A stretch of DNA of 64,000 nucleotides from assembly GCA_914767715.1 (NCBI GenBank), contig OU612065.1:8430001-8494000 (forward strand), written 5' to 3'. Positions 6,001 through 60,694 of this stretch are shown here, one piece after another. Below the pieces are notes generated by a model. The model was not told the origin of the DNA. It searched no databases and worked only from the letters and a program-made list of their open reading frames with translations. Both the position numbers and the translations under genes were made by a program. The DNA is from Membranipora membranacea. Its lineage: Eukaryota > Bryozoa > Gymnolaemata > Cheilostomatida > Membraniporidae. The stretch's first letter is position 1. The number at the start of each line of letters is the position of its first letter.

Positions 6001-6012
6001 AAGTATTTGATC
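1..6012. other. Left intergenic region, no gene recognised
   Basis: I see no convincing coding exon here. Open frames (for example 2348-2572 and 3417-3605) are short, lack splice or domain support, and resemble no family I know. The stretch is AT-rich, with an (AT)n run near 150-168 and frequent GCTAGCTAG-type words. The last part upstream of 6013 should contain the promoter and 5' UTR of the EXOC5 gene, but I cannot place a transcription start. Confidence 0.5.
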
Positions 6013-13053: not shown

Positions 13054-14660
13054 CTACATTGAATCAAACTCTTTGGCAAGAATTGCAAAGATATTAGCCT
13101 TGAGACGAGCGCGTTTATTCTTAGGGACTTCTTCAAACATTTCTGCGACACACATACCAAAGTGGTACTCTGTGAATTTCTGCTGCATCGAATCAGGAGG
13201 AGTGTGTACTGTGTGGGTAGCAGGTAATGAATCGCTCGAGCTTTGTAATAGATTGCCAGAGCGTCTTGAGGTGCTGGAAGCAGTGTCATCATTATCTGTG
13301 TCATGGTGGCTCTACGTTAGAAAAAAGGGGAAATGATTTAAGGTAAAAAATAATGGTTTGATTTGAGACGCATGGCATAGGATGAATCAGAACTTCATAA
13401 CAACCGCTCTCCCTGATCAAGCTGTGGCCAGCTGTTAACATTAAAATCATAGCAACATCCCTCATAGCTTTATAATACCAAGAGAGAATAACTCCTTTTG
13501 TCACAACATAACCGTAATAAAACATTAAATGGATATTATTAATTTAATGTGTTCGTACAATTCTGCATTAAAACTTTGGGGTTTCAGGGGTGTAACAGGT
13601 TTGTATGTTTTGAATGACACCATATGTAGTGATTAATGGTGGAAAGGTTACCTACCAAATGAGAGGGAAATAGAGAAGCTCCATTATGTCGATAAGTTTC
13701 AGAGCTGATTGATGTAGCTTCACGCTTCATTGTTGTGGAAGGTATAGCAGGGATGTGCTTATTCTGCCTGGATGGGGAAGGAGATACAGACAAACTTTTG
13801 GTTTGACTCGAGCTTGGTTTTGATCCGTTAGAATTCATAAATGACTGCTGATATGGCTTCTGTGTGACCTGCATGGAATCATCAGAGGGCGAATCATCTG
13901 GCTCTGGGCCTCCATTGCTCATTGTGCTGATATCAGCTTTATCAAATACACTCATCATACTGTACAATTCACCATCCAGGCTAAGCTTCCCTTTGCAATA
14001 GCCATAGTAAAGCCGGTACCAGTTCTTTTTTAGAAGTTTCACATTCCCACCCAATTCCAGAGCTATCTCCTCAAATGCTGCATCCCTAACTATATTCTCT
14101 TCTCGAGTGAGAGACCTCGGGTTGCTGAGCAGCCCCCACAGCTGTGGTTTGCTTTTGACTGCCTCAATCAGGTTTTTACTCTCTTGGATTCTACAATCGC
14201 CTTTGTCCTGACTTGTGGAGCCCTGGTGCAATAAGAAGTTTTTGCTACGCTTCACAGCACGCTTGGCAGCAGTTTGTGAAGCCATCTGGGCACTGCTTTT
14301 TGCGACTGCAACTGATGCTGGACTCAACTTGAGGAAAGGGATGAGGAATAGTAGGCTGTCGAAGAACTTCCAGTTGTTGGGATTGAAAGGTTTGTCAGTG
14401 TTTTTGGAGGCTTGGTAGATTTTAAAGTATCGAGCAAAGCCAGATCTTAACTTAACCCAGATCGAGCGAACTTCAACTGCTGGCAATCCAAATATCCAGG
14501 CGATCTCATTCCATGTTTTCTCTCGCTTGTTTGCCAATTCAGGGTTATTTCGGCTTGATGGTGGGACATCATAGAGAAACTCATTCTTCTGAACTTCCTC
14601 AATCAGATTAAACAATGTGCTGTCAGAATAGTCTGATAAATCTACATTGACTCTGTCCAT
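13054..14660 (-). CDS. Tandem MADF-domain DNA-binding protein
   Basis: Probable sequence-specific transcriptional regulator. Two coding exons on the minus strand, 14660-13656 and 13311-13054, join in phase 0 across a GTAGGT...ACGTAG intron to give 420 residues. Residues about 16-100 form a first MADF (Myb/SANT-like) domain, with LFNLIEEVQKNEFLYD, a conserved W in KTWNEIAWIFGLP and VRSIWVKLRSGFARYFK. Residues about 158-225 look like a second, diverged MADF domain (NLIEAVKSKPQLWGLL, AAFEEIALELGGNVKLLKKN). A Ser/Thr/Gln-rich linker follows, and exon 2 ends in a compact helical segment (YHFGMCVAEMFEEVP, then LKANIFAILAKEFDSM) resembling the short C-terminal protein-interaction BESS motif of MADF proteins. 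The start at 14660 lies nine bases after a good acceptor (TTGTTGCAG), so a non-coding 5' exon must lie upstream; I could not locate it. Target and pathway are unknown. Confidence 0.82.
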
Positions 14661-16149
14661 GTTGACAGCCTGCAACAGAGATAAGTTGTGGTTACAAAAA
14701 TTACTCGGCAATAATCACTGAGGTGGCCGAGATAGAGTTAATTTTTTATTATTTGGGTTATCATCGTTGAACATTTACATTCTCACACAGATATACAAGC
14801 CACACCTCATGCTCTACTTGCACACCTGCGGCATTGTTCAGTACATATTGCCAAAATAAGATTTTCACAAACGATATCTGTTGCGGTATGCTTGAACTTG
14901 TGCAGAAACCCCTTCAACAATTCATATCATGCTATTATATTTGTAACAACTTTTTTTTTGGGGGAAGGCGGAGTACCATAATATTTAAAAGAGATAAGTT
15001 TTCAACGTGCTAAGACATTATAATTATAGATATATCACCAATGACTAATTGTTACTAAATTTTGGCCTTTTTATTGAAACATAATACAACTTGAAAATAG
15101 CATAATCACTGTGTACATATATAAGTTGTAGGCAAACCAGCCTGGAAAATCTCCAATTTATATACTCAAACCAATTGGCCTGACAGCTGGCATGACGATA
15201 TATCTTTGGTGACATCATCAATATCATCTAATATCAGACAAACCTCTGATCTGAAGGGCCATTAAGTTTGGTAATGACAACACTGCCCTCCATGAACTTA
15301 CAGAGTGTGCTCAAACTATCACCAAACAAATCCACAAAATATTGTCACATTAATAAATATTAATGTATTATTTCATAATATGTCTATGTTCACAACCAGA
15401 TCAGCAGAGTAAAGAAATGAACGAGAAGGCTTCAAATAGTGATGGAGAGCACTCATGTGATCTGCTAGCAGCTGTTTATATCAGCATGCTGACACATCCC
15501 TGTACGAGTCCTGCAAAACCAATGCATTCGATTTTGGAACTCAATTTCCATAAATATTGAGATGCATTTTGACAATAATACACAGTGCATCGTGGTTGCT
15601 GCATGAAAATGGTGTTTTAAAAATACCGATACCAAACACCAAAAATTGTGAGGAACTGAACATTTTGCGCCTATTGACTGTGGTTAGTCCAACATAAGTG
15701 ATTTGATACTGGACTTGCGGATCTGCTTGAAAGTCAAGAGGACATATCTACACATGTGGAGGTGCTGCCTTCAAGTAAAAGAGTCAACTACCACATAGCA
15801 AGGTTATAGCTTGCAAAGACAGCGTGCTCAAAATTGATTGTTTGGTGCAACATATCATGAATTTGGGTGATATGTTAAGGATATGTCGCAGTCCTATGGT
15901 CACTTTTTCTCTCTGCTATTCCTGATGGTGAAAGGAACTCTGCTTTAAATTGTGTCCAGCTTATCCCGCTTCACATCAGGCCGTAGACACCTGCAGTTAA
16001 ACAATTTATTTGTACCAACAGCTAAGCAATGGAACGACTTGCCAAACAACAGCTAGCCTCTACAACCCAAATCCACCTACACGTCTAAAAGCTGCTCAAC
16101 TTTCAAATATGTTGCGCCTGGAAATCAAAAGGCAACCAGGGTTTCAAAC
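14661..16149. other. Gap upstream of the MADF gene
   Basis: This should contain the untranslated first exon and promoter of the minus-strand MADF gene. I cannot identify them. The remainder is AT-rich with no supported coding sequence. Confidence 0.45.
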
Positions 16150-17060
16150 AACTTCTCATTGATTAATAGGGACTGCCATAATATTTATTATCTTTTGTAT
16201 ATTCTTTTTTAACTGATAGGCAGCAATTTGTCCGTGTTAATAATAGTCAATCTAATACTTTTAACTGTGATATCGGATGTCCTCAGGGTTGTGTGATCTC
16301 ACCCATTTTATTTTCAATATACACCAATTTTATTCAATCAGAACACAAAGACATTAGAATTTTTAAATATGCTGATGATATGGCAATAGTAGGAATTTTA
16401 GATTTTAAAGCTGATGCTTCATTTTATTTTGATGCTGTAGAAGAAGTTTTAGACAAATGCCGATCGGTCAACCTTTTGATTAATGCCAAAAAGACCAAAG
16501 AGATGGTTCTGAGTTTCAGTAGAACTTTTACTGTTTGTGATATTTTTTACATTAATGGTAGTGTAATCGATAAAGTTAATCATTTTAAATACCTTGGTAC
16601 TACTTTTAGTAATAGCCTTAAATGGCATGAGAACTCTTTATGTATTAATAGCAAGTTACGCTCAAGATTCTATGCTTTTTCCAAATTTAAACATTTTAAG
16701 CCTAGTGTCTCTCAGAAAGATCATTTTATCAACACGCTTATTTTTCCAATTCTTACTTATAATATCGAGTTGTGGTATATTTCATCAACTGTTCAAGAAC
16801 GAACGCGACTTTTTAAACATTTTATCCGTAACAATTTTTCTGTAGATATAACTAGCTACGTAGTCGAGAGGATTCATATTTTAGCCACAAACTATGCTAA
16901 CTGGGATGAACATACTTTAAATAACTGCTATTCATGCCCAAGATCCCAATACCTTTTGCCAAAAGTAAGGACCAGCAGATTTCTAAATAGTTTTATACCT
17001 GTTAGTATTGAGATTTTAAATAACAGAGACATTCCAACACTTTCATTGTAATATGTCATT
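16150..17060 (+). mobile_element. 5'-truncated non-LTR retrotransposon (RT fragment)
   Basis: An open frame from about 16150 to 17051 encodes the C-terminal half of a LINE reverse transcriptase. In order it has a finger/palm junction (LTDRQQFVRVN), the PQG box (GCPQGCVISPILFSIYTNF), the catalytic Y-A-D-D box (FKYADDMAIVG), the thumb region (NLLINAKKTKEMV, HFKYLGTTFSN), and a terminal stretch with spaced cysteines (NNCYSCPRSQYLLP) followed by RFLNSFIPVSIEILN, as in CR1/L2/Rex-like elements. The endonuclease and 5' RT part are absent, which fits 5' truncation on insertion. The catalytic box is intact and the frame is open over about 900 bp, so the copy may be fairly young. The 3' tail is A-rich with ATCTAAAAAATCTAAAT near 17080. 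The clade is inferred from motif style only. Confidence 0.85.
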
Positions 17061-18590: not shown

Positions 18591-19330
18591 TTAAAAGAGT
18601 TGAGCTCTTCTCTGCACTGCCTCGATCTTGTTGATATTGCGTGTGGTGTGGGGATTCCACACAGCAGCACAATACTCCAGTTGGGGGCGTACAATGGCCT
18701 TGTAGCTCATTTCTTTCAGCTCAGGAGGGCAGTGAGAGAGGTTACGTTGGAGCATGTTTATCGATCTGTTGGCTCTGGTGGTAATAATATCAACATGACT
18801 GTTCCAACACAACTTGGATGTGATAGTAACACCAAGATATTTTACATTATTCTTTAGATTTAGCTGATGGTCTCTTATTTTATACGATGCCTGCGCTTGC
18901 TTTCTTTTTAAACTTGTTCTTAGTACTTCACATTTCTTAGGGTGGAATTCCATTGACCAATCTTGTTCCCAGTCGAGCAAGCTATTCAGGTCCTCCTGTA
19001 GAAGTTGACAATCAACCGGAGATTTAATTTCACGATATATTGTGCAATCATCAGCAAAGAGTCGTATTTGAGAACCATTTTTAACATAAGAAAATAAATC
19101 GTTAATATACAACAAAAACAAGAGCGGATTAAGGACGCTTCCCTGGGGAACGCCAGATGTGACCTTGGATGGAGATGATGACTTGTTATCAACAACTACC
19201 TCTTGGGTTCTACCATTCAAAAATCCCTTAATCCAGCTCATTGAGAAGTTGTCAATGCCGTAAAAACCTAACTTATACAGAAGTTTCTAGTGGGACACCT
19301 TGTCAAAGGCCTTTGAAAAATCTAAAAGAA
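18591..19330 (-). mobile_element. Non-LTR retrotransposon RT fragment, broken
   Basis: On the minus strand a second, different LINE reverse transcriptase fragment runs from LLDFSKAFDKVSH near 19325 down to 18591. It shows WIKGFLNGRTQEVVV, the GVPQGSVLNPLLFLLYINDL box, the F-A-D-D box (IRLFADDCTIYREI), EDLNSLLDWEQDW, and the KAIVRPQLEYCAAVWNPHT region. An in-frame TAG at 19287-19289 interrupts the frame just after the KVSH block, and the 5' part of the element is missing beyond about 19330, so this is a dead fragment. The motif style is Jockey/RTE/CR1-like and clearly different from the fragment at 16-17 kb. Confidence 0.88.
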
Positions 19331-30300: not shown

Positions 30301-33300
30301 GACAATGAAGTGTGTTGTATAGTGGAGCAGCTTGCAGCCATAGGCCTCATCAATAATTCATACTCCCATCAATACAATGTGCAATCAAATTTACCAAGAA
30401 TTAAAGGTGTCAGCAAATGTTCTGGTATTCCATAATCAATAGTTTTGCATAAAAACAGTAAACCTCCGTGACTGCCCATATTTTATTGTGCCAGTCAGCA
30501 ATATATAGCAAAAATCCCAGCCCAGGGACTCGAGTATTGATATCCCAAAATGTGATTTATAATGGGTGTGACAGTTTCAGCAATTGCACCAGCATTATGC
30601 TAACAGCTATCTTTTCACTGTGAAATATTGTTCAGTATATTGATGTCACACTTCTCATATCTCGCTCATTATCATATTTCATCAGTGATAAATGCATCAA
30701 TGCACCAGAAAAGAAATCCATTAAAACTTCCTATCCAGTAAGAGAGCAAAAATTTCACTTTTGTTGGTGAGAATATATCTGCGTTGATCTAAAAAATTGA
30801 CAGCTGTAATCAGGCCGTATTATAACATAGTGTCAGTATATCTGACACTTACCAGGTGGGTGATGTGACACCTGTTCAGCTGTGTAGACCAATTGGTTGG
30901 TTTGTGATGTGTTCTGTTCATCAGGTACATGCCACGAGCAATGGAATGTCTCTCCAATGATAGGATTATATGGTTTTTTGGCTAAACTACCCTGAAACAA
31001 AAATGGACATATATATGACCGACACTGCATTGTATTGATTTGTGTATAAACTGAATCATAGACAGGCCTGGAAAAAAGGGACAGTATTATTATATATTGG
31101 GATCTTTGCTTACAGAGATTATCCCAGTAATGTTAGATGATTACAGTAATGGTACGCCTACGCACACTAAGGTAGCTGATAATATCTTATATCTACATAC
31201 GACATCGATATACTTAGCAGTAATCTCTATATGGTATAATGAGGAGGTCAGCGACAGCAGTATCAATGAATGAGCCGACATCTAATATGCAAGATGTCAA
31301 TGTCAGCATTGTCAGCATTTATGTCAACCTAATTGAGAGTCGGGATGATGACAGCTGAACTCTAACAAGAGCTACCCAAGAGATGCTCAAAATAGAGCCT
31401 TCCATTCATATCGTTCAGAGGCAGCCGCCCACTAACCTAATTATCATTTTATGCTATACTTATGCTATAATTTACATGTTTCACCTATCAATGTAATTCA
31501 CCGGAGCTTGTTAATTGTGATTGCTGTCGTTTGATAGTTGCCAGCTAACGGTTTAAAGGACATTTGATTGTAGTAAATACCTTTCTGCCTTCATGGAATG
31601 ATGTAAGATACCATTCAACAACGTTCAGCATTCGTTCTTCTGCTGTCGACTGATTGGTGATCCTGAAAAGACATTTAGTTTTGGTTGAAACCATTGAAAA
31701 GACTCACAAAATAAAATCTTGGCGTTGTTACTTCAGTACTTTGTGGCTTAGACGGCACCCAAGTTATATAGCACCAAAGTTATACGGATATGCATTTTCA
31801 GAAGCTTAAATTTTTGGGAACATTTATAATTTATGGTTTATGATGAGAGTAGGTGCAAAGGTGTTATGATCGTAATGAAATTTATACTGCTGTTTCAGTA
31901 AATGCAATTCCCTCAGGGATTGCTGTTACTTCTAAGAATTGTTTCACTCTTTCACATAAGACAAACAGAAGAAAATTAATGCATAATATTTGTTTTTCTG
32001 GAAATAACAAGTTTAGCAACAAGGTGCCCATGCAATAACGGCATTTCCATTGGGAATTACTTTTTGAGAAGCAGGTGAGTCTGATCATACCTTATAAACT
32101 GGTCAGGGTGTGCCATACAGTCTGCAAACATCTCTAACAAAGACCTTTTCTCCAGAATAAATGTTGGTAAAACCACCTTGGTAATAGTTAGAGACATGTG
32201 AATAACCAGGAAAGAAAACCATGGAGATGGGAGGAATACGTACAAACTACATGCTATAGATCAATTTAGCAGCATGACAAAAAAACTTAGCATGCAGGTC
32301 AATTAACAGAACAACAAGAAATTTCCAAAGACAATTTGTTGAAGTGTTTTTTATAATGTCATCAGTTGTCACCCATTTATTCCCTTGATAGGGATAGTGA
32401 GAGCAAATCTAATGAGAAATGGTTGATTCAATTATCAGAAATAAGACTTACCTTTGTGAGGTCCATACCGAGTTTAAGTTGTGATAGCAGGTGTAATATG
32501 ACACTCTTGTGTTGCTCCATCTCTCCAAGATCTTTCTCTTCAAACGCCTCGGCATCCTGAACCTCTTCTTCCCTATTTATCAGTGGCACTGCAAGTAACA
32601 GCATTGTCTGACTTTAACAATCTCAGCACAGAATAAAAGTCAGCAGGTTATTAAGTCTGCTGGCGGCGTCAGCAGGTCTATCCGTGGACGGATGATTATC
32701 TGCACTTCTGTCCCGCAAAGTGTTTGACGATGACAGACAAGGGAGGATGCAGATCAAGTGAAAGTGTCCTTTTTACTCTGGCTGACTACCGGTATCGATC
32801 ATTTCCACCAACAATAGGAGAGCTTATAAGTATCAAGCAGTAATTGTAGAATATTATCCTAGCGGTAATTTGTAAGCATGCTCACAGTAACACTGTAACA
32901 CTGTATTAGATGATGATATTTCCTGCCCTTCTTATTGGTGCATTAGTCTGAATGCTAATGACACTACCTCTGAACATAAAACCTACCATAAAGCAGATTA
33001 CTCATTATTGTACTCTCAACGTCATGTGATAAAAAATCAATAATCGGAGAAAAACAAATTTTATGCATAAATAGTGGCATTATCAATGTAATACACACAT
33101 ATTATACATCTTGCAATTTTTTGTTTTAATAATTATTTTTTCTACAAATGATTCACACTAAAATAGACTAGGAAGGAAGAATGTCCACAGCAGGATATGT
33201 CATTTAAAAGTCTGCTGCTAAAGCGAGTCCATTGTGTTTCCAACGTCATTGCTATTTTTTAGCCCAAGGGATTAAAGAACCCTTGATTTGTCAGCTGCAT

Positions 33301-44886: not shown

Positions 44887-47800
44887 ATGGGGAAAGCTAA
44901 ACAGAATGTCAATGGAAAAGGATCCTTCTCAGACCATGTCAGAAGTAGAAAGATGGCAAAGAAATCTGGTGCTGCCCAGTCTGTGAGAACAAATCCTTTT
45001 GAGATAAAAATCAACAAGCAAAAGCACAAGATTATTGGGAAAAACTTGACTAAATTTGACAAGGGAGTTCCTGGTGTGTCGAGGTCCAGAGCCATTAAAA
45101 AGGTGAGTCTCCTCTAAAATTTGAATTTATAATATATAAAAGGCTTGTCTATCACTCATTCACAAACTGCTTGTCACTCTTGTTTCCTCTCTTCTAGCTC
45201 CCATTCATTGTCTAACTTACATACTAACTAACAAGCTCTAGCCATAGGCATCTGGAGTTACAAGCATGCAAAATTTGCCCATGTTCAGTATCAACCACCC
45301 CCCCCCCCCCAATGGGTGGGGGATGGTTGATACTGGACATGGGCTCTAGCCTGCACTTGAGCTTTATGGGCTGTGACCAGCGTGGGCTTCATGTGACAAG
45401 GGGACTTTCAACCGTTCAATTTGGGAAAAAGCTACTGGTGATAAGGTTATGTTTGTGTCATGTATATGTTTGCTAAGGTGGAACTGCGTACATGGTAAAT
45501 CCTAGATCATAGAAAGCTGGGTCTATGGAAAATCATTACACTACAAAACATCCCCTCATCCAATAGTGTGTATATAAGAGGATGCCAATTTGTCCTTCCT
45601 GAATAAGCCGCTGTAAAATTTCAGGTTTTCATTCAATTAATTTTATTACTCAAGTTACAAGTTCTGAGTTTTATTAACGGTCCAAGCTAAGCCGAATGAA
45701 ATAGCAATTTGAAATAATACATCATTACATTTTTTGTATGCTGTCATTGATGTTGCCCTTTCGACTTGACAGCGACAAGAAACCCTTTTAGTGGAGTTTA
45801 AAAACAAGAAAAAATCCAACCGACTAATCGATCACCGAATAGGGGAGAATGATCCAAGTTCAACCCTAGAGGAGAAGATGATGGGCAGGTTCGCTGCTGA
45901 GGGGAAAAAGCGACACGGAAGGGGCTCTGTATTCAATATAGATGATGACGAGGATGGAGAGTTTGATCAGCTGACACACAGAGGGCACTCTCTGCTGGAG
46001 ATAGAAAAGTTCGACAAACCGTTAGAAAGTGATGAAGAGGAAGAAGGCAACGAGGCAGGAAATCTCAAAGGTGTGTTGCGGCATCTTGTTAGTGGTTTCA
46101 GTTTCCAAGTTGTATGATATTTGATATTTGGACAAGTTCAAACTATTTTGCCCGTAGAACTGGCTGATATAGAGTGTGAACAGAATGACACCTATATTTT
46201 GGTTTGGTATAGGTGACATAGTAACAGAGGGACATTTTGGTGGAGGGATGCTGCAAAAGAAGTCTGGTTCAGAAGCAGAGCAAGAAAAGTCATGGAAAGA
46301 TAGGATGGAGGAAATGATTGCCAAATCAAAGCTTGCAAAGGTATTTAATCAGCTGGTTATCCATAAGTTGTGTTTGACAGGATGTTATTACGCAAATATT
46401 GATGTTCACCAGTAGTAAGGCTTTTGTTGTGCCATGGTCGCAATCTGGCAAGCCAAAGTAACTGTTGGCTGCGCCAAACTTGTCATTTTACTATGAAATG
46501 AAAATGAATTCAAAGAGTTATGAGTATAATCCTTTTTACCAGCACGAGAGGCAGGCAGAAAAAGATGAAGTTGTGCAGATGACTGATAAACTAGATGATC
46601 AATGGAGAGTACTTCACAATGTAGTAGCAGCCAGGAAAGTAAAGGTGCGTCATTGGAAAAATGAATAACATAGAAAGGTTCTTGTGGACAGCATAACCCT
46701 GAAAATTATATGCAATGTGTGTATTTTGCATCGATTGGTCTTACACGAAGGCTACTAATAACTGTATAGTGACTGAGACTCTTCTTTCAGCAGTGAGTGC
46801 TTCTGTAATTATTGAAGCAATGCATTATACTGACATAATAATAATTTTAATTCAAGGAAGCTGAGCACATAGAAGCAGATGATTTTGATATTGCTGTCAA
46901 TGAACTGAAATATGAATCCAGGGGAAATCCCACTGACAGACTCAAAACTGAAGCTGAAGCAGCTAAAATGGAGAAAGATAAACTGGAGAAGCTAGAGGTG
47001 AGTTTTGTATTTGTATTATCCAAGTTTGATAACGCGTTGTGTTGCAGTCAGTGCTCTCTTATGTTTTACCTACAATAACATTTGTGATTTCCTATCTAGA
47101 TTATGATACTTACTTGTTATGATAAAGATGTGATAACTCACCTAAGAGCTGTTGAGGAAGGAATGTATCAGTTTTCAAACTGAAATTTATCTTTCTACCT
47201 TGCTTTAAAGTGACAGTCCTACTAGGCCATGTTTGGTATGGTTTTAAAGATCTCAGGCTGAAAATTCATTAGGGCATATGAAATAAAACAGCCTGTGAAC
47301 CTAATTTCAGTAACACGCTGCAAAGTCTGAAAATTGGGATCATAGTGGATCATAATGATTTACTGCCTCCCCCTGAACACTATGACCTACTATGATCCTT
47401 GCTAAAAAAATTAGATAATAATTAAAAAAAACTTATTGCTAATTTCCACAATTTTTATTTTTTTGAAATTTTTATTTGCCCTATGAACTCACAATATTTG
47501 ATTTACTGGGGTAACTTATCCACTTTTCTAATAGGACTGACCCTTTAATGAAATAGTGTGTCTATCCAGCCTGCAGTTCCTTACATGATTGTTATGGGAT
47601 TATTTCTCAGAGAGCGAGACTGGACAGAATGAGAGGAGAGTCTAAGGGTAGATCACACACATCTGCTGATGATCTCGACGATGGGTATGTTAGTCGTCTG
47701 AGATAAGGAGAATGCTGTCTGAGTGTCTGTGTTAGAATTCTACTAAGCTTTCAAACAAGGGCTAGAGTTTATTGCATTTATTTCAATGATGAGGTGACAA

Positions 47801-50800
47801 CAATTGCCAGAAGTATCCGAGTAATGAAACATGCTGCAGATTAACATGCAATGTTCAGATGGTTGATCATGTTTTTTATCATAACTGGTATTGCTTCTTC
47901 TATAAAGGATGGACTATGGCTCCTTTGGTGAAGAGGAGGAGTTTGAAGTGAAGTATAAGGACGGCAAACTGATATCCGCCGGTAGGAAAGATGAAGATAC
48001 TGACGACTCTGATGACAGTGAAGAAGATGAAGGTAAACTGATAGAATAAATTATCAAGTAGTGATTAAAATCAAACAATGTATTTTACTCAATTAATTAA
48101 TTAATTAATTTAGTGTTTATGATTTGGTCAAAGCGCTCTCCTCATTCACTGCTTTTGAGTTTGAGGTCAGCAGTGCTCACACTTTGTTTACAGAATCTGA
48201 TGAGGAAGAGGAGTCTGGTGCCAGCGGAGATGATGAATCAGCCAGTGGGGAGGATGATGGCAGTGAAGAGGAGGATGAATTCAGGTAAGAGTTTTAGTTG
48301 AAGATTTTTATCACATTTCTCACTTAGCAGAGGGTCTGGACGATTCATATCCAGGTCTCTACTCTTGATATCACAAAAATATGTCACACAAGTGGAATAA
48401 ACCTGTATATAATAGATTTGTATATGCATGTATTTGATGCACCTACTGATTCTCGCACCTGTCTGTGCATGTGCTGTTGGGTTCCTCACTGTTCAGCGCG
48501 ACAAACAATGTTTTCTGGATGCTTATGAGCCATTCTGTCAGCATGCACAGAATCATGGATGTTAGCATGACATATTATGTTCGTCCTATACATAATGTTT
48601 CTATTTTCATATATCAAATTGTTGTTTTCATTTAATTTCCTGGTATACTCAACGTCAAGGTCGCTATCAAACAATATTAGGAACCAATGAGCTCTGATAT
48701 TGTCTTCTCAACAAAGCTGAGAAGGCAACTCCTATTCCTGTGAGTTTTGTCACATAGTAGATACAGATATGTAGGGAGGGTAAATACAATAGTCGTTGTT
48801 GCTTTCCTTTTTGTGTTCTCAAGGTACACAACTAAGTATTGTTACATCAGCATGATCACTTCAACATAAGGTAGAGGGATGCGATGTTGGGAATCGTAAA
48901 TTATAGGTTGCAAATGCCTCTACTTAAAACTGCAGATTGAACCTTTTGAAAGGTGAAAACAGAAACAAGAATTTCACTGTTTCTAGAAAATTCATAGCCT
49001 ATAGCAGTAGGCCAAACAATTAAAAGCAATATTTTATCCAAGTACAGCTCCTTAGTCTAGATTAGGTATCAAGAGAAGGTCGGGATCAGAACAGAGCAAT
49101 GTAGATTTTAGATGCTCATTAGTATGATTGCACAAAATATAACTGGAGATTGTTTGCATTGTAGCTTCTGGATTTATTAATCAAGTAAGATGATGGAAAA
49201 ATTTATGATCATTCTGTATCTTGATATTGTTATCTCATGCTACATAATTCTCTTTCGATTCTTATAACTGCTTTGTACAGCAGACTGGAAGGTCTCTTGG
49301 ACATTGAGGTGAGTGAGGACTGACTGGTCGCTCAGAGCTGTTACAGGTTCTCTGACAGGTACCTCTGCCTTGGCGTCCTCCACATTCTTTCACTGTTAAC
49401 ATCGGACAAATATCGTGAAACAGGAAATGGAAATACAAACAAGTGGTCTGTTTTCTGCTGTCATCAATCTGGCTCAACGCTATTCGTCAAAATATGTTGG
49501 AAAGTCGCACATACTCAAAGAATCATTGTGGGGTGTTTGTCAGTTGGTGAGACATTTTGATCTTGAACTGCAGTCTTATTGTTTGCAATGTAGGGATTTT
49601 ATCTTAAGTGTTAAAGACAAATGAAGACTTACGTATCTGATACTGTTTTGCCGACACTAGAATGTTGGTCACAGCCATCAACACCAATAGCACTGCCAAC
49701 ACATTGCTGAAAAAGACACATAGCATTGCTAAAAACATAACAAGTTAAGAGCTATAAACAGAGTGAGAGACAATATAAACCATTCAGGGAAAAATAGAGG
49801 ATAATAATAATAAGAATACCGGTTTAGTTTTCTCAACAACAGTAATGTCAACAACAGGGAGCAAACAGAATGAGTTTTACACTCACCGCAAATTTAGCAT
49901 GATGAAGCTGGTGATTTACTGAGCGACTGATATGTCCTGAAAGGCTACACAAACTGATATTTACAAAAAAAGGCCCTTAGCTGTTTATATTTGACATTGA
50001 GCTTGTTTTGTCACAGCTTCCTTGAACAACTTGATATTACTTTGACATTGAAATGGATATTGCATATCCCTCTACATGGAGACACATTTCCTTAGTCATT
50101 ATCAGATGAAAAGCATCACAAACCATGATGAACATCCTCCCTGACACGTAGCTCATAATAACTTGACATTATCAACCAAACCATCGACCTCTCAACCTCA
50201 TCACAAGCATGTGTGAACTTAGTCGCCTATTGATGCTTTCATGGGTAACTTAAACATCTCTCAGATTCGGGTTCTTTTGTTCGTTTTGGACAGACTGAAC
50301 AGGTTGTTGGGTCTGGTTTTTTGTGTCAAGTCATGTTTATTTTTCTCAGTTCCATCAGATTAAATTTTTTAGAATGCTTGATTAGTACTCGTGGCTATTA
50401 AAATCTGAAAAAAATGGTTGAATTGCGATAAGAAGTCGTTAGGAATTCGATTTGACGCAGCATCTGTAGGGGAAGATACAGTCATTCTTGTTAGTATATA
50501 TGACTACAGTCTCGGTTCTAAAGCAGTGTCGTCTACAGGCTCCGGTCACTCCTTTTAGAGAGCATGCTGGAATGGGAAAATAGATCATGTGTGTGATAAA
50601 ACTTCTCAAAGCATCACAAACATGCATGGATTCAATATGTAAATCATGGAAGGTCCAGTATTGAACTAATTTAAGTGCTTTGGTGACTTACCTAAGGAGG
50701 GTTTTACTAGTGAGGTCAGAGTAAGTAAGAACACTGGAATCAGAGAGCTGAACCACCGAAAATAAACAATAACATTATATACTAATACTGATACCGCTGG

Positions 50801-53800
50801 CACAGTTTGAAATCTATATGGGAAGTAGATATGTTTAGGAATATCAAACAAGTTAAGATGACCCAAACGATGTTGACGCCTCTGTGTATTTACTTATATA
50901 TATAGCAAGTGTGTAGGTGTGTATGTATGATTGTTAGTATGAACTTGCCTTAGTATCCTCATTTTGATGACTGAATGCACTGTGCTTGTGACCACAGAAA
51001 CACAAAAAGTGTGCGGGCTGTTATGATGGATTTCCTGTCATGTTCAAGTCCACGTTACTGGTGTAAGTGATCACGTGTAGTAGTCAAGGATAGAATATCC
51101 TTGGGATAATAACTGCTCGTACTGTTGGACTCGAAAGTTATGCTCTCGCAGTGATATGTTATACATCTTAGTCAATAAACTTTTTTTCTGGGGAAAGCTG
51201 CATCTTATGCATAATAATTTTTTTTATTTCACAGCTTTATTAAAGTCTGTTGCAGTTCATTCTAAAATGTAAAATGTTTATTATGTTAGTTCTTGCTCTC
51301 CCCCAGAATTGCGCTCTCACTTGACTTTGGTTATTGACGAATGGCTGTAGACTACTAATCATTGAGCTAGCTCAGCAAGTAGCAAATGATTTGATTGGTT
51401 TGGGAATGGGTTATGTGATGATGATGATAACCTTATGATTGTTGGGTATTGCATTGGAGAATACTCCCTCTCACAAGTTACTCTATGTGAGTTTAAATTT
51501 TGGTGCTCTGACCATAATGCTCCTGGTACAGTAAACACAAAAGACTATGTACTTCCAATTGAAATTTATTGTTTCAAATTCAAATAGTTGAGTTTAACAT
51601 TCATAGTTTGGTGAAGTTTCTGTCATCTTCAAGCCTCTCTTTGTTAGACACAGCATTTCTCTGAAGATCCACATTTATGCCCGTGGTAGATCGGTAGCTC
51701 ATCTCCAAAGCAAAATCTTCTGCAGTTTCCTTCCACTAATCCTGCTTTCCCCCTTATATAGCACTCTTAAAAGATAAAATTAATTGAGGACATCACATGA
51801 TTGCCATTATAATGTATAATGCCATGTGATCTCCTGTAAAATATTGCTATAGATATATCTTAATGTGTGAATTGCAGTGGGCTTGGTATATAGCTCAGTA
51901 TTTATAAATCCGGAGTTCACAGAAAACTGTATGGCTCTCAGATTAAGGACAGAACACAAAGTGGTTATAAAATATGAGAGATTGATTTACCTGTTGAGTA
52001 GGTACTTGTTGTTACAGCCAGGACAAGAAGACAAACATCCATCAGATATCTGCAAAAATAATAACAGACATTGAGTTGTAGGACACACTGATAAAATAGA
52101 ATTTTGAAAATGTTACCAGCAAAAAACACCATTATAACTTTTACAAGTAAATGAATTAAACAAGAAGGTAGACTCACTGTAACATATTCATGGTTTGTGT
52201 TGTGTGTGTGTATGTGTGTTCTGAGAAACGTGTAAACAAGAAATGACACTGTAGTATATGATATATATCAGGAACCCTTTTGTTATTGGGGCAGACACAG
52301 GCACTGCCACGCTAGTTATCATCAGCCACTTGTTGTTAACCTTGGCTCAATTGTCCTTTTGTCCTCTACCCTTGATCAACCTGATACTGCTGCAGTGCAG
52401 TACTCCAATCATAGCTGATTTGAATGGGATTGGATACACTCTTTCTATTTTGCGCTCTCTAAAATTGACTTTCACAATTAGTCATTGGAACCCAGTTCCT
52501 CTGTAGAAAAGCAGAAAGTACTCTCGGTTCATTAACTTTAACATTCTAACTTTGTGTGCTTTTAGCATTTGGAGAAGTTTTGTATTTGAAATTTAAACAT
52601 GATTCCCAAACGTGATTAGATCTTTATTCACCATTTATGTTGGTAGTTACTGAAATGGGTTGGTTTATATTGATATCCTAACCAAGTCATTACTAGACAA
52701 AGGCAAATATAAGAACTGCTGCCGTCAAAATGGTTAGCTTCAGTCTCCACACTGTGGACGTCATGGTGCCAAGAAGTTTCACCTAATGTCTGTTAATTCT
52801 GTTCACAGGCTTATGTTTGAAACTTTAATTAGCTTCTGATTTCCTGGTTTCTGGTTTCTCTTTTACCCAAGGACATAATCTCCTAATTAGAATCAAGATA
52901 CAAATATAAATATTGTATCAAATATTAATCAATAAACCACATAATTGATTTGCTCGGAAGATGGATGTTTTATTTCCTGAATTCAACACCATTCATGGAT
53001 AACAAAATATGTCAATCACTCAATAACATTGATCTCTTATTGGTGTGTCATCAGGAAATTTCCAGTGTTTTAATCTTAACCAAAGTTAGGCTTTGGCATG
53101 CAGCACCTTCCGCTATCTTCACAGAAGCCAAACCAGTTCCACCTCTCCTCTGTGTGACAGGATGTTCTGCATGATTCATTACATCTTGCTGTAAAAAAAC
53201 ATGTATACAAATATACATAGCGCTTCTTAGCCAAAAAAATTAATAATGTAGGCCTGTGTGATTTGATAGGGTTTTTTGAAAGGAGCGTAATATGTGGAAG
53301 CATGAAGATCACACTGCAGGTTTAAATCCTGTCAATCTTTCACTGCGAATATGCAAATAATATATGCATGTATGGTCAAAGATAGAGTTTGTCCACCACT
53401 TAGGTCATCAATGTTAAAGACGTACCAAATACTCTTGCTTCTTTTGCTGCTACAAACTGTGCCGCAACAGCCAAAACCAGCATCAGGAAAACAGCTAGTG
53501 CCCTATAATTAAGTACAAGGAGATACCATCAAGTCACCCACATGACAAGGGTAATCAAATTAACTTCTACGAATGAAGATATTGGGAATATTGAAGGTTG
53601 GAAGGTATTTTTGACATCCAAAGTCCCTGCTGGTTTAATATTTGGGTCCTTATATCCCAACAACTCGTTTACAAAGAATCTATAAAAAAACAAACGTTCG
53701 TAAGCTGTAATTGTGATCACAACTGCAAAAAAAACCAAGAACTGCTAGGGAAATTATCACCACTTTAATATGTCAAGTTTCATAGTAGAAAAACGAAATA

Positions 53801-56800
53801 TTATATTTTCTCTGAAGTTTGTACTTCTATAGTGGTAATGATGCTCTCAAATTACCATTGCGCCTACAATTAACTCCCAAGAACTTACTGAGATATCTTC
53901 ATGATTTTATGTCTTCTGCTTGACAGTAAGCAGACCCAAATTCGAATGGCAGATGTTAACAGTTAGGAAAGAAGGAAAATAAACCTCATGACATTTTAGA
54001 ATTTTCAAGGTGGATGATTAGCCTTGAGCTGTGACAATAAAGGTCGCGAAATAGGAACCGCTGGGCTCGATCACAAAACATAAGTAGGATTCTCAATGTC
54101 ATACTTTATTTTGTTTATGCATACAATTTGTTACAGAGAGGATACAAAAGGAAAAATAAATCTTAGGTGGAGAAAAAAATGAGGAACAAATGCCTCTATT
54201 TAGTTACCGAGTAGAAAATTTGTTGTTATAACAATAAACAGAGAGAGAGTTCATTGGTTAAAATGACACAGAATGCACTTGGTAGGTTGTTGAGATCAAA
54301 TATGTCATAGTTATAAGTGATTGATCGGAGTCTAAATGTCTTTGGTGCAGCAGTAGTTATTCCCACACGATTTGTAGCCTGCCACCATCTCACCAATCTG
54401 ACAGCTAGGTCGGCACACTCCTTCATGTACTAATACCTTACCTGCTGCCCATACAGCGCCTTCACATGGTCCATCTGTAAAGGTTTTATTAGGTTATTAA
54501 AGAGGGGGTACGGGTCAGATTCACTTTCTCCCGTCCCTATCCAGGTTGATAGATCACCCAATTCAGATTATGTACACGTGCTCCTCCGATTTTGCGCCAA
54601 ATACATCATAACAATTTGTTAACATTTATAAGCAAGAATATGATGTCATATGTAGGACTCTCATAAACAATGCCCTATCAATCAATAATGACTGATTTAC
54701 ATTTAGCGATTTTTCTCAGTAAATATTTAGTATTTTTGAAAATCATTCCTCAACTATATTTGACTCTGCTGATGTAGTTTTGAAACCTAATTTTCTTTTT
54801 TTAGAAGAAAATTAGATGTAAAAAAGTGTAGTAATAAAATAATTTTCAATTCAGTTTATAGTTAAAATACAGTGTCACAATGTGTGTGAAAGCAGGTGCA
54901 CTGCATGATATTGATTTTCTAATGAATTATAAATCAATATATCATTAATCATCATGCTTTACGCTATTAAATATGGCTCAATGTAGCCTGTCTTGACAAG
55001 ACATGCTATGCTCGTGTAATTACCGTGATCTCATAAGTTTTTAGGATTTAATTTTGAGCATAGCAAATTGGTAAAAGTAAGTCTCATAAAAAAAAAAGTT
55101 GGTCCATATTATTACTCCCCGCACAAGTAAATCCTTGTAGATAGACTACCAAGTGTCTACAATTAATGCTGGATCTGAATTACACTCCATCTTTAATAGG
55201 TATTATAAGCATTACAAGGCAAATATTTCATCTGAAATTTCATCCTCGAGGCTGTATACTGATCGATTTACCTACCATATCTATTGTCAAGCGAGGTTAC
55301 TTGAGCTATGTCCACAGCTCGCTGTCCATAGGTGGAGACCAGCCATCGGTAGACATTAGCTGTCACTGTCACACCATTATAATAATGAGGTAGTTTTATC
55401 ACTGGAGGTTGAGATTCTGTAGAGGTAACAGTTGGAAGTGTCTGTCCCATATTTACTAGTACCAATAATGAAGCACATGTTAATATGAGCCTACAAAAGC
55501 GAGAGGGTATTAGCAGAGGGGAAGATACATTGAAAAAGAATACTCAGGATGCATCGGTCTTATAGTTCTCACCAAATTATCTGGTTCATGAAGAGCAGAC
55601 TTATGTGATAACAGACATTTTACTTACCCACTAGACATGTTGGTAGAATGCTGATATGTTTCTTTAGTAGAATGTTTGTGTATTGCGGTTGAGATTTGTT
55701 GCTTACTTTGATGTACCTGTTTTGATGTGGCTTGAAGTTGAGTTTCTCCCTGGCTTTATATCTATCGCAGGCCATGCTGTTTGTTCTCATGGTTGCTGTT
55801 TTTGTTTGCTCAAACGGTTTTTGTTTGGAGCTCACACTTTTGGGTGACCTCTTAGCAGGGTAAACAGCCAGCACTGACATTGGGACCAGAAGACTCAATA
55901 TTTTCGCAGTGCGATAGAGTCCGTTGAATCGCCTTAAAATTTTTGTTTACCCGGTTTTTACACTGATGGCTATTCAACAACACCACTGATAACTCAGGTT
56001 AAACACACATTTTTATCAGTCAATGCTATTTGAAGCTTCATGTCATAGCCGTATCCTATAACTGTTGTTTTGTAAAGGCGAAGAAGTAGGTATATCTTAT
56101 GGATCACCATACTACATAAGCTAAATATGAACCTGGTACATGATATGTCATTGGAAGTTACATCACTATGTCTTGCTACAATATGCCACATATTTTTTCA
56201 ATACTGTATTGGCATCTATATCTATATATATGGTGTACATATCAACCGCTCACAGTTAAGACATATTGTTCCAATTATTTTCCAGTGATCTGGAGTCAGA
56301 GGAGGAGGATGGTGATGAGAGCGATGGTGGGGAGGAGGATGAGAGTGTAGAAGTTAATGCTCCACCAACTAAGAAGAAAAAAAACAAATCTGACATATCT
56401 AATTCCTCCAGTCAACCTTACGCCCATATTCCCTTCACATTCACAAGTAAGAATTATTTTATGCAAACCGATGATAGCCGTTTTAATTTGGCCAAAAATA
56501 AATTGATAAAATAAATTATACCTGCAGAAGTCTTCTGTTTATACTTCACTCATATTTTCACTCGAGAACATAATGTATTTCCCCTTTATGACATGGTATT
56601 ATTTTGTAACCATGGGGTAAATGGAACCCGTCCTCTCATTCTGACAGTCATATTTACTTTTGACAGTTCCGGAAACATTCAGCGCTCTGGCCGAGCTTCT
56701 GGATAAATATGAGTTAGATGAACAGAACGTGGTCATAGAGCGAATGAGGAAGTGTAACCATGCCAGTCTAGCTGAGGGTAACAATCTACATCTCGTGGTA

Positions 56801-59800
56801 AGTCTACATCTACTCACCAATCCGATCTCTAAGTAAACAGCGTTAAGCTTAACACTTACTTTTTTTGCTGTACAATGTTATTTATGTGTGTATTATTATT
56901 TATTTTATTATCATTATTATTATTGTGTACATTATGTACACTGTTGTGTGATATAATAAATGAATCTTGTTGAGTTATGATGATAACTTCTTATTAACAG
57001 AGGCTGTATGGCTTTCTACTGGAGTATTTTGGCGACTTGGCTCTGCGGAACCCAGTTCCTATAGTCATGTTAGATAGACTGACTGTACACTTATATGACA
57101 TAGCTAAACAGTTTCCTCAGCTGACCTGCAAGCACAGTAAACATATAATCACTGAGAGACAGAAACTTTTCTCTCTCTACTGCCAGAGTAAAGGTGGTAG
57201 AGGGGTGTGGCCTTTTCTTGATTTGGTAAGTAAGATTGCAATGTGAGTGTGACCAAGGAGTTAAAGATTGTCTTTAACTCTTTGGTGTGACACATGCTCT
57301 GTAGTTTTATCAATACTGTCTGTCCTAGTGTAAAGACATCCTTGTCTAATTCTATGTCAGCTTGTGCACAACTTCATTGCTCATCTTTTACAACATTGGT
57401 ATTTCTATTTGCTGTAAATAAATCATGTTACATATTGTTATTTCTCTTGCAGCTGATGTATTTTAAGTTACTGTCATGTATATACCCGACGTCAGATTTC
57501 AGACATGAGGTTACCACTCCCGCCATGTTATTCGCCTCTCAGATATACAGCAGCTGTGCAGTGACTAACCACAGAGATGTGGCTGTGGGCCTTATGCTGA
57601 CCACTGTGATGGCCGAGGTGAGAAATACATAATGTTTGTTAGGTTGATATGGATTCATGTAAACAGAACAGCAATTTGGTGAAAATCCTAGATTGACTTT
57701 TGTCTGGGCAAAAATCAAGTGTAGGCTCTATAAGTGGTAGTTAGTCTCGTGACGACACGACCTGTGTCAGCCTGTGAATTACATCATTGTTATCTGAGAT
57801 TTCAGGAAAAAGGCAAGGCCATACAACATCCTAATAATGTAAACAGTATAAGGTAGCAGGAAGGAACCTTGGCGTCTAGAATGATACGGATCACATCCTT
57901 GTTCCTCAGCCATGATGTGGCATCCTTGTGTAAGCTTGTCACGTTTTTGCCAAACATAAGTCATGTACACTATACTTTCCCCCGTTATACTTGTTCTGGT
58001 TTGTTTCAGTATGTGTCCTTCTCCAAAGCTGTTATGCCGGAGTGTATCAACTTCCTATCAGCATTATTATACACTGCCTCCTCAACTGACTCCAAACCCA
58101 GTAAAGGTAAACTATTGCCCTACTTTACTGTGGTATGATATACGACATGTGAGTGTTCATCTCATAGACTGTGTTTTGTCTATGATGCCAATTAAGATGT
58201 GTACCTGATCATCATCCTCAAACTCTTGGAACAAATCCTATTTCATAAATCTTACTAGTATTGTGAAAGGACTGAGTCATGATATATAAGTGGCTATGAA
58301 TGTGTTTAATACATGGATGTTATCAATGTTTCCTTCTCTCTATTATTGCAGTGAATGTGGCCACGACGACCTGCCGGGCCAACCTACTCAAATGTAAAGC
58401 ATGTGGAATTGATCTGAGGTGGGTAGTAGTTATTAATAAGTACAGCTACAGGCTGAATCTCGAAAGTAATAGGAGTTCTAACCATAGACTTAATAATGAT
58501 AATAAAATAAATAATAAACCTAGACAGGACACCATCCATATACAGCTGAAGTGAGTCACTTAATTGTGGGGCGACGTAACGTCATTGGAAGGTGTAGAAG
58601 CAATGATGCTATCATTGATTTACTGTCCATAATCCAGTTTTTTGTTCAAAACTCAATCAATTTTGATAGGATTTTGCATTTGAATATTGCTTTACGATCA
58701 GCAGCATCTTGTTATCAACTTGATGCTATTTCTTCTTCAAAAAAATTTGTTTGCCTAAAATTAGGATCAAACTGTTCAGGACAAGCTGCAAAATTGATCG
58801 CGTCATCGACAAAAAACCTGGATTTTGGACAGTAAATCAATGATAGCTTCTTTGCTTCCACACCTTCCAATGCCGTTATGTCGTCCACAATTAAATGCCT
58901 CAATGCTAATGCATGCTCGCTCCATATAGTGTCCTGTCTATGTTCTAACAGTTCAAACAATATAGCATCAGTAGTTATGCTCTCTGTACTAAAGAGAGGA
59001 CAACTACAGAAGGCATTCACTGGTTTATATATATTGGGTAGACAGTAAACATCTAGTACTGAGTACAGCACTAAGCTTCACCATCCACCTCCTACCTTTT
59101 TATCAAAACTTTGGATATAACATACAGTGGTGACACAAGTTATGTCTCTCTTCAAACAGGAGAATTACGACTAATAATGCACTCTATCTGGTTATAGGTC
59201 TAAAGATATAAAACCCTTCAACCTGAATCAGGTGATAGCTCGTGGAGTTGGTAACTCCATATATAACACAGATGAGTTTATTCTCACCGCATTACAAACT
59301 GCTGCAGTGCTTCTTAAGAAATTCATAAGCTTCTACACAGACACTCCAGCCGCTGCTGCGCTGTTTAGTCATGCGAGGTCAGCGGTGGATCAAATCAGTA
59401 CTGAAGATTACCCTCAATCTCTGCAGGTAAAACAACTCATTATTTTCTTTTTGCTTGTCTACTCTTGTATATGTAATACCTGATCACTTGGATCTCAAAA
59501 GATGTACTTTTCATCCATGTGTTTTCTGCTACTAAAAACAAAGTCAAGAATGTCATGTTGACATTCTGATGCAGAAGTCTTCAAGTATAGACCATTGTAT
59601 CTTCTATTAACTGCAAAGATGTTATGTGTGAATGATGAGGAACAACACAAGCCATTCTCACAAATCATTTCTCTGTTTGACAGGCACAACTCGATGATCT
59701 GGAAGAGAGCTTAGGAAATGTAGGGCCGACTAACTTGGGATTTGTATGTAGAGAAAAGAAAAAACCCAAAGTACTCCGTCTGTATGAACCTGACATCGAG

Positions 59801-60694
59801 GATGAGTAAGTCCATAAGTCATTTGACCACTTGCAGCAGACCTTGCATCGCTGTGCAGCATAATTTTGGGAAAAATTGCGTTGGATGAAAGTTTCTGAAA
59901 AAAACTGAGCTGATCCGATGGACACATTGATACGTTTATTGTGGTTGGCCAGTTAAGTGCTCACTGGCTAGACAAGGATAGATTTGTTTGTGGAAAAGGA
60001 CTTTGAACTAAGCTTCAAAAACAGAGTTACAATGGGTATGCAAAAATAACACACAACTTTGAATGATAGGTAATTTGGATTTGTCTCTGATACAAACGAT
60101 CACATAGATGGAATGAAGAAGGGAAAATTAAAGAAAGAATATTTCGATAAGGAGCACCAACAATTCTTTTTTCTATGATAATTGAAGTTTCGAGGCAGGG
60201 AAGAAGAAGGTGCCGAAGGACAAAGTAGCTGCTGAGAAACAGAAACTGAAACAGCAGTACAAGAAAGAACTTAAGTCTACTATCAGAGAAGTAAAGAAGG
60301 ACAGAGCATTCATAGCAGAGCAGAAGATTAAAGAGCGCATCAAGAGGTATATCAGCTGAAATTCTGATTGATTGATGACAGAAGTCATTATTTGGCGGTG
60401 TCTGTGATTCCTAGCTGTTTCATCAAATTTGGTTTCCGAGCCTATCCTTTTTTGGTGATGTTGGAAACTCAGTCTATGAGCGATTAGAGTTGGTCTCATG
60501 ATATACCCTGCATTGCCTCTTAACACATTTCATGCTTCCTGCTCTGACCGTATTATAATAATGATTTTAGGGATGCTGAGAGACAGAAAAAGACGAACTT
60601 GATTCTTGCTGACCTGCAGGGTCAGCAACATGACGTCAACATGCATAAGAAAATGACAAATCCTACCCAGCGTCAGCGTAGTCACAAACATTAA
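44887..60694 (+). CDS. NOP14: Nucleolar protein 14, ribosome small-subunit assembly
   Basis: Nop14 is a component of the small-subunit processome, needed for pre-18S rRNA processing and 40S export, acting in the nucleolus with Noc4, Emg1 and Enp1. Eighteen exons: 44887-45102, 45773-46070, 46213-46340, 46543-46644, 46857-46997, 47611-47684, 47908-48032, 48194-48284, 56286-56446, 56667-56797, 57001-57225, 57453-57617, 58010-58106, 58352-58418, 59198-59426, 59684-59805, 60188-60346, 60571-60694. They join in frame to 884 residues (human 857). Landmarks are a basic N terminus (NPFEIKINKQKHKIIGK, KGVPGVSRSRAIKK), the GRFAAEGKKRHGRGSVFNI block, FGGGMLQKK, DLDDGMDYGSFGEEEEF, a very acidic stretch across exons 7-9, a helical-repeat core, and a lysine-rich C-terminal tail. 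Intron 8 (48285-56285) is about 8 kb and hosts five antisense defensin-like genes; intron 14 holds an inverted duplication. An AATAAA at 60693-60698 overlaps the stop codon. Confidence 0.95.
45277..45344. repeat. 68-bp palindrome with poly-C centre in NOP14 intron 1
   Basis: GCCCATGTTCAGTATCAACC at the left is matched in reverse complement at the right by GGTTGATACTGGACATGGGC, and the centre is a run of C followed by GGGTGGGGG. Almost the whole 68 bp can fold back. It resembles a miniature fold-back transposon, or two element ends fused after loss of the middle. Confidence 0.8.
49262..49900 (-). CDS. Beta-defensin-like secreted peptide E
   Basis: Likely antimicrobial peptide precursor, secreted. 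Three exons on the minus strand: 49900-49887 (14 nt, phase 2), 49706-49633 (phase 1) and 49392-49262, giving 72 residues. Residues 1-24 form a clear signal peptide (basic start, then LAVLLVLMAV and a small-residue cleavage site near Ser23-Ala24). The mature part has six cysteines at 33, 42, 46, 60, 67 and 68, i.e. C-x8-C-x3-C-x13-C-x6-CC. That is inside the spacing range of beta-defensins and of the C-terminal domain of big defensins. Net charge of the mature part is about +5. There is no hydrophobic big-defensin N-terminal domain. It is last in transcription order in the five-gene row inside NOP14 intron 8. Splice sites are GTGAGT, GTAAGT and good CAG acceptors. Antimicrobial function is inferred from the family only. 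Confidence 0.82.
50439..50962 (-). CDS. Beta-defensin-like secreted peptide D
   Basis: Three exons on the minus strand: 50962-50949 (14 nt, phase 2), 50747-50692 (phase 1) and 50566-50439, giving 65 residues. A signal peptide covers about residues 1-24 (SLIPVFLLTLTSLV). Cys25 follows almost at once, so the mature peptide begins at or next to the first cysteine. Cysteines are at 25, 34, 38, 53, 59 and 60: C-x8-C-x3-C-x14-C-x5-CC, a beta-defensin-like order. The mature part is strongly basic (about +5, with RRH and FR near cysteines 2-3). Exon 1 needs a GC-AG intron (donor AAG|GCAAGT), otherwise matching donor consensus very well; it was chosen because the resulting 14-nt exon has the same length and phase as in the neighbours. 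Head-to-tail between genes C and E. Confidence 0.8.
51644..52191 (-). CDS. Diverged defensin-like peptide C, five cysteines
   Basis: Three exons on the minus strand: 52191-52178 (14 nt, phase 2), 52049-51991 (phase 1) and 51741-51644, giving only 56 residues. The signal peptide spans about 1-22 (YLMDVCLLVLAV). The mature part has cysteines at 31, 35, 48, 54 and 55: C-x3-C-x12-C-x5-CC. These match cysteines 2 to 6 of the neighbours; the first cysteine is missing, and the signal-peptide Cys11 is not a plausible substitute. Net charge is near neutral plus two histidines. Exon lengths, phases and splice sites (GTGAGT, GTAAAT, GCAG acceptors) are as in the other members and the frame is open to a proper stop, so it may be functional with an altered fold, or an early pseudogene. 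Confidence 0.68.
53076..53902 (-). CDS. Beta-defensin-like secreted peptide B
   Basis: Three exons on the minus strand: 53902-53889 (14 nt, phase 2, donor GTAAGT), 53502-53426 (phase 1, donor GTACGT) and 53188-53076, giving 67 residues. Residues 1-24 are a textbook signal peptide (ALAVFLMLVLAVAA, small residues at the cleavage site). A short linker with KEAR at 25-28 precedes the cysteines at 33, 37, 41, 53, 59 and 60: C-x3-C-x3-C-x11-C-x5-CC. The first spacing is shorter than in usual beta-defensins. The loop before cysteine 4 is aromatic (Trp47, Trp49, Phe50, Phe52). Net charge is only about +1. It is second in transcription order, directly downstream of the big-defensin gene, and shares its exon phases. 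The role as a host-defence peptide is inferred. Confidence 0.78.
54332..55638 (-). CDS. Big defensin A, nested in NOP14 intron 8
   Basis: Big defensins are two-domain antimicrobial peptides with a hydrophobic N-terminal domain and a beta-defensin-like C-terminal domain. Three exons on the minus strand: 55638-55628 (11 nt, phase 2), 55490-55276 (phase 1) and 54474-54332, giving 122 residues. Signal peptide about 1-20 (GLILTCASLLVLV), short propeptide, then residues 37-73 with the family pattern LP.(Y).G.TV.A.V...LV..YG..A (LPHYYNGVTVTANV, WLVSTYGQRAV, ending DN). The C-terminal domain has cysteines 79, 96, 100, 112, 117 and 118; the blocks GVCRPSC and SCGNNYCC closely match mollusc big defensins as I know them. 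Spacing C-x16-C-x3-C-x11-C-x4-CC departs from the usual x6 first loop. The intron between the two domains is phase 1. The C-terminal part is about neutral in charge. First in transcription order in the cluster. Confidence 0.85.
58561..58893. repeat. Inverted duplication in NOP14 intron 14
   Basis: The 77-bp arm 58561-58637 (TAATTGTGGGGCGACGTAAC ... TGTCCATAATCCAG) is matched in reverse complement by 58818-58893 with only about ten differences, around a spacer of about 180 bp. Weaker similarity continues inward (TTTTTTGT, ATCAATTTTG). Open frames run through the structure on both strands (plus 58551-58835, minus 59071-58715) but resemble no known family. It is likely a fold-back of an unknown mobile or retrocopied sequence. 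Confidence 0.75.

Follow-up and report, generated by a model that had tools for sequence, protein, structure and literature searches.

The trans-defensin fold is a three-stranded sheet with the bonds C1-C5, C2-C4 and C3-C6. In a 2020 review, big defensins are described from some lophotrochozoans, horseshoe crabs and amphioxus, and the phase-1 intron that lies directly before the cysteine domain, both in big defensins and in vertebrate β-defensins, is cited as uniting the two families (PMC7203481). How big defensins shed their N-terminal domain to yield β-defensins is an open question, and the routes that have been proposed are intronisation of part of an exon, exon shuffling and deletion (PMC7203481). 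The stretch analysed here, 64,000 nucleotides (nt) of contig OU612065.1 (the window, to which all positions refer), carries five small three-exon genes, A to E, on the minus strand, all of them in one common orientation and wholly inside intron 8 of the ribosome-assembly gene NOP14. These are very probably protein-coding tandem duplicates of a single big-defensin-type ancestor, placed antisense to their host, and the array is best read as a divergent series of big defensins and "non-canonical big defensins" of the kind known from clams and the zebra mussel. What is unusual for such an array is its nested antisense location.

The host gene is modelled on the plus strand as 18 exons (44887-60694) that join into a single open frame of 884 amino acids, and the PDB contains Nop14 chains that match the spliced product at E=6e-68 and 9.7e-67. 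When nine open reading frames (ORFs) of the gene were compared with Pfam, Nop14 was the best family in six (E from 4.4e-31 to 2.2e-05, two of them scoring under the curated cut-off) and was not the best in the three that belong to the acidic linker (47906-48046, 48109-48288 and 56260-56511). Intron 8 (48285-56285, phase 2) falls within this linker according to the exon-by-exon model and Pfam, and it is bounded by exon 8 (48194-48284) and exon 9 (56286-56446). It measures 8001 nt as compared with 142-779 nt for the remaining 16 introns, which makes it about ten times as long as the next-longest, and indeed 15 of the 17 NOP14 introns are shorter than 680 nt.

Within this intron the five genes span no more than 6.4 kb, with 429-884 nt between one stop codon and the next ATG. 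Gene A opens with a coding exon of 11 nt (55628-55638), which ends in phase 2; its exon 2 (55276-55490, ending in phase 1) encodes the remaining signal peptide together with a hydrophobic N-terminal domain of big-defensin type, and exon 3 (54332-54474) the six-cysteine domain and the stop. In B, C, D and E, coding exon 1 has 14 nt (53889-53902, 52178-52191, 50949-50962 and 49887-49900, respectively), exon 2 encodes the signal peptide (53426-53502, 51991-52049, 50692-50747 and 49633-49706) and exon 3 the six-cysteine domain (53076-53188, 51644-51765, 50439-50566 and 49262-49392), the first loop of the B domain being short at 3 residues. The intron phases are 2 and then 1 in every gene, the reading frame is open over all three exons in each of the five, and all 30 domain cysteines are present. 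The acceptors are AG in 10 of 10 introns and the donors GT in nine, the sole exception being the first intron of D, a GC-AG intron with the donor AAG/GCAAGT (50943-50948). The hydropathy peaks of the five leaders, taken over the first 34 residues, fall in the top 1.2-4.3% of the window's 415 ATG-started frames, and an AATAAA follows every stop at a distance of 73-221 nt (221 nt in A, at 54105-54110; 101 nt in B, 73 nt in C and 97 nt in D; 49173-49178 in E). In the 400 nt upstream of each gene, NF-kB-like sites were found for none of the five and TATA-like hexamers for A, C and E only. A sequence-only reading of this DNA had proposed five tandem minus-strand genes of three exons, each with a signal peptide and a six-cysteine domain, nested antisense in one NOP14 intron; the genes are confirmed by their frames, phases, splice sites and cysteine pattern, the nesting is borne out by the 18-exon model, and the coordinates given there for intron 8 and for A to E match our exon models exactly.

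The cysteine framework is restricted to these genes within the window. A permissive six-cysteine pattern, broadened post hoc so as to take in A and B, has exactly five matches in the six frames of the 64 kb, one per gene, and none in any of 60 dinucleotide shuffles of the window. Residues outside the cysteines are likewise shared, since C2-[R/Q]-x-x-C3-x-x-x-E is common to all five peptides, and the motif C[RQK]xxCxxxE, also chosen post hoc, again occurs exactly five times in the six frames, once in each gene. The cysteine-stabilised αβ (CS-αβ) defensins, whose framework has a residue between C5 and C6 (PMC5234102), were considered as a candidate family and rejected, since C5 and C6 are adjacent in all five peptides.

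Searches of the PDB with gene A (phmmer) gave only three matches at E<=10, all of them big defensins (E 0.029, 0.26 and 1.9), and the weak alignments to 6qbl (residues 40-119 of A) and 2rng (residues 37-118), at E 0.029 and 0.26, cover both domains. A joint profile of A to E places Big defensin 1 at the top (E=1.5e-4), with defensin-fold proteins accounting for 8 of the 9 matches, and a profile of B to E built without A has the same protein first (E=0.012), followed by matches of which, in total, 7 of 9 are defensin-fold and the remaining two scorpine. One cysteine-preserving shuffle of the A-E profile had two matches and no defensin among them. In Pfam, a defensin family ranks best for each of the five peptides; among ten cysteine-preserving shuffles used as a control a match of any kind was seen for three, namely to Defensin_big for a shuffle of B and to unrelated families at E ~0.003 for the other two. 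NCBIfam returned no match for A, B and D, the three proteins sent, and scans of contig collections with gene A confirmed no relatives. The cysteine domain of D, modelled with AlphaFold2, reached a predicted local distance difference test score (pLDDT) of 80.5, and all 11 Foldseek matches to this model are α-, β- or big defensins or helianthamide; the N-terminal domain of A alone, predicted without an alignment, reached a pLDDT of 58.5. As a group, A to E are thus related in sequence to big defensins, and the kinship with β-defensins and big defensins claimed from the sequence alone is upheld by the PDB matches of A, the joint profile and the fold matches of the D domain.

Two observations weigh against this interpretation. 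The single-sequence matches of A to E, in Pfam and in individual searches, are weak and lack significance on their own, and the C-terminal domain of A has a net charge of -1, while a cationic C-terminal domain is a commonly quoted property of big defensins, albeit one that we do not hold to be indispensable. The odds we attach to a big-defensin origin do not rest on single Pfam scores, and owing to its charge A is filed here as divergent, or big-defensin-like. The notion that unrelated cysteine-rich peptides, for instance of the CS-αβ or conotoxin-like kind, converged on a six-cysteine pattern ending in CC could draw on these same weak scores, on the low identity among the copies, whose cysteine domains are 27-43% identical to that of D, and on scorpine making up two of the nine B-E profile matches. 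It is nevertheless highly improbable, seeing that the last two cysteines are adjacent and not of the CxC type, that the intron phases are common to all five genes along with the R/Q and E residues outside the cysteines, and that the control profile with the same cysteine framework matches no defensin.

The five genes are however not equivalent. In A, the signal peptide and the hydrophobic N-terminal domain precede the phase-1 intron and the six-cysteine domain, whereas in B to E a signal-peptide exon is followed by the phase-1 intron (4 of 4) and the six-cysteine exon, and the N-terminal domain is absent. The extra domain of A had gone unmentioned in the sequence-only reading, whose five-gene defensin cluster therefore holds as a tandem array of trans-defensin-type paralogues and not as a set of five equal defensins. 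Gene A would retain the ancestral two-domain layout of big defensins, and B to E would be descendants that lost the N-terminal domain and became non-canonical and β-defensin-like. The phase-2 intron within the signal peptide, being common to all five, argues that entire genes were duplicated and that exon 2 was shortened afterwards, and it makes it less likely that exon 3 was shuffled onto leaders of foreign origin. A search of the window with the N-terminal domain of A (tblastn) yielded, besides A itself, a best E of 0.75 among the 20 matches listed, and this match lies outside intron 8; likewise no remnant of the domain was found in intron 2 of B to E, either in three frames or with tblastn. 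Since these introns are saturated, the absence of a trace is compatible with intronisation, which is a possible rather than a demonstrated route of domain loss.

Indeed little of the non-coding sequence can still be compared. Among 60 region pairs aligned, only exon 3 of C and D is clearly similar (z=5.2), and exon 2 of A and D (3.4) and intron 1 of A and E (3.0) are marginal, so that either the copies arose by duplication long ago on the scale of neutral change or this is a fast-evolving locus. The non-cysteine columns carry no purifying signature, identity at codon positions 1, 2 and 3 being 37, 33 and 40%, and this flat profile could reflect diversification or alignment noise. Together with the GC donor of D, the lack of such a signature might be taken to mean that some members of the array are in decay or not expressed, in the form of pseudogenes or of copies variable in presence and absence in a tolerant intron, and big-defensin presence/absence variation is reported for mussels and oysters (PMC7203481). 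The signal-peptide-like ORF at 52764, which has no cysteine domain, could be counted on the same side. Such decay is improbable in view of the five open frames, the complete set of domain cysteines and the AATAAA after every stop; furthermore, the frames are intact although the non-coding parts are unalignable, which suggests that their intactness was kept through a long divergence. The ORF just mentioned lies in the gap between B and C (52693-52764, minus strand), reads MTSTVWRLKLTILTAAVLIFAFV before running into stops and contains a leader-like hydrophobic stretch, downstream of which no six-cysteine domain is found; it may be what is left of a sixth gene.

A gene with both domains thus stands within 6.4 kb of four paralogues that lack the N-terminal one and have both intron phases in common with it, so that relatives of the species could reveal the steps between them, and the array amounts to a natural test of β-defensin origin. 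By analogy with the family, the peptides would be secreted by way of their leaders, oxidised into a three-disulfide fold and active as antimicrobial or related host-defence agents. The N-terminal domain of oyster BigDef1 is reported to confer salt-stable killing and assembly into nanonets (PMC6805989), and that of A may, as in Cg-BigDef1, serve in membrane contact or assembly. Two oyster big-defensin paralogues are described as complementary and synergistic (PMC9786018), and B to E would here have diversified in charge and loops. The net charge of the cysteine domain is -1 in A, +1 in B and in C, +5 in D and +4 in E (+5 with the preceding residues), and the cationic D and E would by this analogy be the most conventional β-defensin-like members.

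As A, B and C are atypical of cationic peptides, other roles are conceivable, and the peptides might be secreted defensin-fold proteins with a non-immune task such as enzyme inhibition, as in helianthamide, channel modulation or signalling. Helianthamide is in fact the first-ranking fold match of the D domain and the fifth of the nine A-E profile matches (E=0.071), and the non-cysteine residues have diverged freely. The top profile matches are however big defensins, and the phase-1 intron resembles that of big and β-defensins, so that such a non-immune task seems unlikely.

With regard to the nesting, the most likely course of events is that the array inserted into, or expanded within, the intron of a constitutively expressed gene. 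Nested antiparallel pairs as such are ordinary in animals, and the unusual point is the presence of five paralogues in one intron of such exceptional length; among the papers listed by a literature search on NOP14 and defensins, nested genes and antimicrobial peptides in opposite-strand introns, no such array was apparent from titles and abstracts. Since none of the five genes overlaps any NOP14 exon, any pairing of RNA would involve unspliced NOP14 pre-mRNA only; the sequence-only reading, too, had proposed complementarity to the intron of the NOP14 pre-mRNA. Regulation of NOP14, or by NOP14, is possible. A functional antisense placement, in which NOP14 and ribosome output fall when the defensins are transcribed, for example on infection, or the array is kept silent by transcription of NOP14, would suit the orientation of all five genes against their host, and nested genes are reported to be capable of causing transcriptional interference, intron retention and cryptic polyadenylation and of disturbing host splicing (PMC3192792). 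The absence of exon overlap speaks against it, as does the commonness of nested antiparallel pairs, which in human make up 152 of 749 overlapping pairs, with conservation in mouse for 79 of the 152 (PMC2330155), and we regard such a function as doubtful. A diversified immune-type array in the intron of a ribosome-assembly gene offers a clean case of guest expansion that may be limited by, or feed back on, its host.

A more far-reaching combination would have the host species lie outside the known big-defensin lineages, possibly as a non-bilaterian such as a sponge, the split between big and β-defensins predate Bilateria, and the array couple bursts of immune peptides to a lower NOP14 output. 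Its basis is the shortness of the NOP14 introns and the fact that NOP14 and EXOC5 resemble solved vertebrate chains only moderately, neither of which is diagnostic. Defensins are stated to occur in Cnidaria and Porifera (PMC11767717), but the Porifera section of that article describes one sponge peptide, which is of the CS-αβ kind and not a big defensin. Taken jointly, these propositions are unlikely.

Elsewhere in the window, intron 1 of NOP14 contains a near-perfect foldback with a C run and a G run (45278-45343, plus strand; CCCATGTTCAGTATCAACCA / TGGTTGATACTGGACATGGG), which was identified by eye and resembles a small inverted-repeat element. Exons of EXOC5/Sec10, an exocyst subunit, are found at 5953-10735 (plus strand), where Sec10_HB matches with E=2.4e-53 at 10193-10735 and Sec10_N with E=0.0095 only at 5953-6291. 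The EXOC5 fragment scores 188 bits against 5h11, an uncharacterized protein chain that we take to be from a vertebrate, versus 56 against the Sec10 chain 5yfp, presumably from yeast, and on this comparison the source of the DNA is animal-like. An open frame of 376 residues (13587-14714, minus strand) has a MADF DNA-binding domain (E=6.1e-15), and a gene for an oxysterol-binding protein has an exon at 30839-31132 (minus strand; Oxysterol_BP in Pfam, E=2e-11). Retroelement reverse-transcriptase fragments (Pfam RVT_1) lie at 16182-17048 (plus strand) and 18594-19286 (minus strand), and for the latter no relatives were confirmed in contig collections. Searches for Rfam families and for tRNAs gave no matches.

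Compared with canonical big defensins, such as oyster Cg-BigDef1/5 and that of the horseshoe crab, gene A is alike in its signal peptide, hydrophobic N-terminal domain and six-cysteine domain with adjacent C5 and C6, as well as in the phase-1 intron between both domains. It differs in its near-neutral C-terminal domain, in the phase-2 intron after 11 coding nucleotides, in the weakness of the similarity (E=0.029) and in a C1-C2 loop of 16 residues, where the aligned BigDef1 has 6. Scallop big defensins are reported to have an extra phase-2 intron that splits exon 2 (PMC7203481). Genes B to E find their closest counterparts in the non-canonical big defensins of the Manila clam Ruditapes philippinarum, which likewise occur without the domain beside canonical genes and have a short exon 2 and a retained phase-1 intron (PMC7203481), and the arrangement as a whole recalls the zebra mussel Dreissena rostriformis, for which one canonical and four tandem non-canonical genes are described (PMC7203481). 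The four mussel copies are however reported to have lost the intron (PMC7203481), whereas B to E keep it, and the present array is set apart from both molluscs by its coding exon of 11-14 nt and phase-2 intron, by identities of 27-43% to D and by its position antisense in a NOP14 intron. β-defensins too have a six-cysteine domain without the N-terminal domain and a phase-1 intron before it, as in B to E (PMC7203481), but in vertebrates and crustaceans the two-domain gene is reported absent (PMC7203481), while both forms stand side by side here. As for the nesting, antiparallel pairs of the synapsin-Timp type also place a guest gene wholly in an intron of the other strand (PMC2330155); there, however, the guest is a single gene, whereas the NOP14 intron houses five tandem paralogues.

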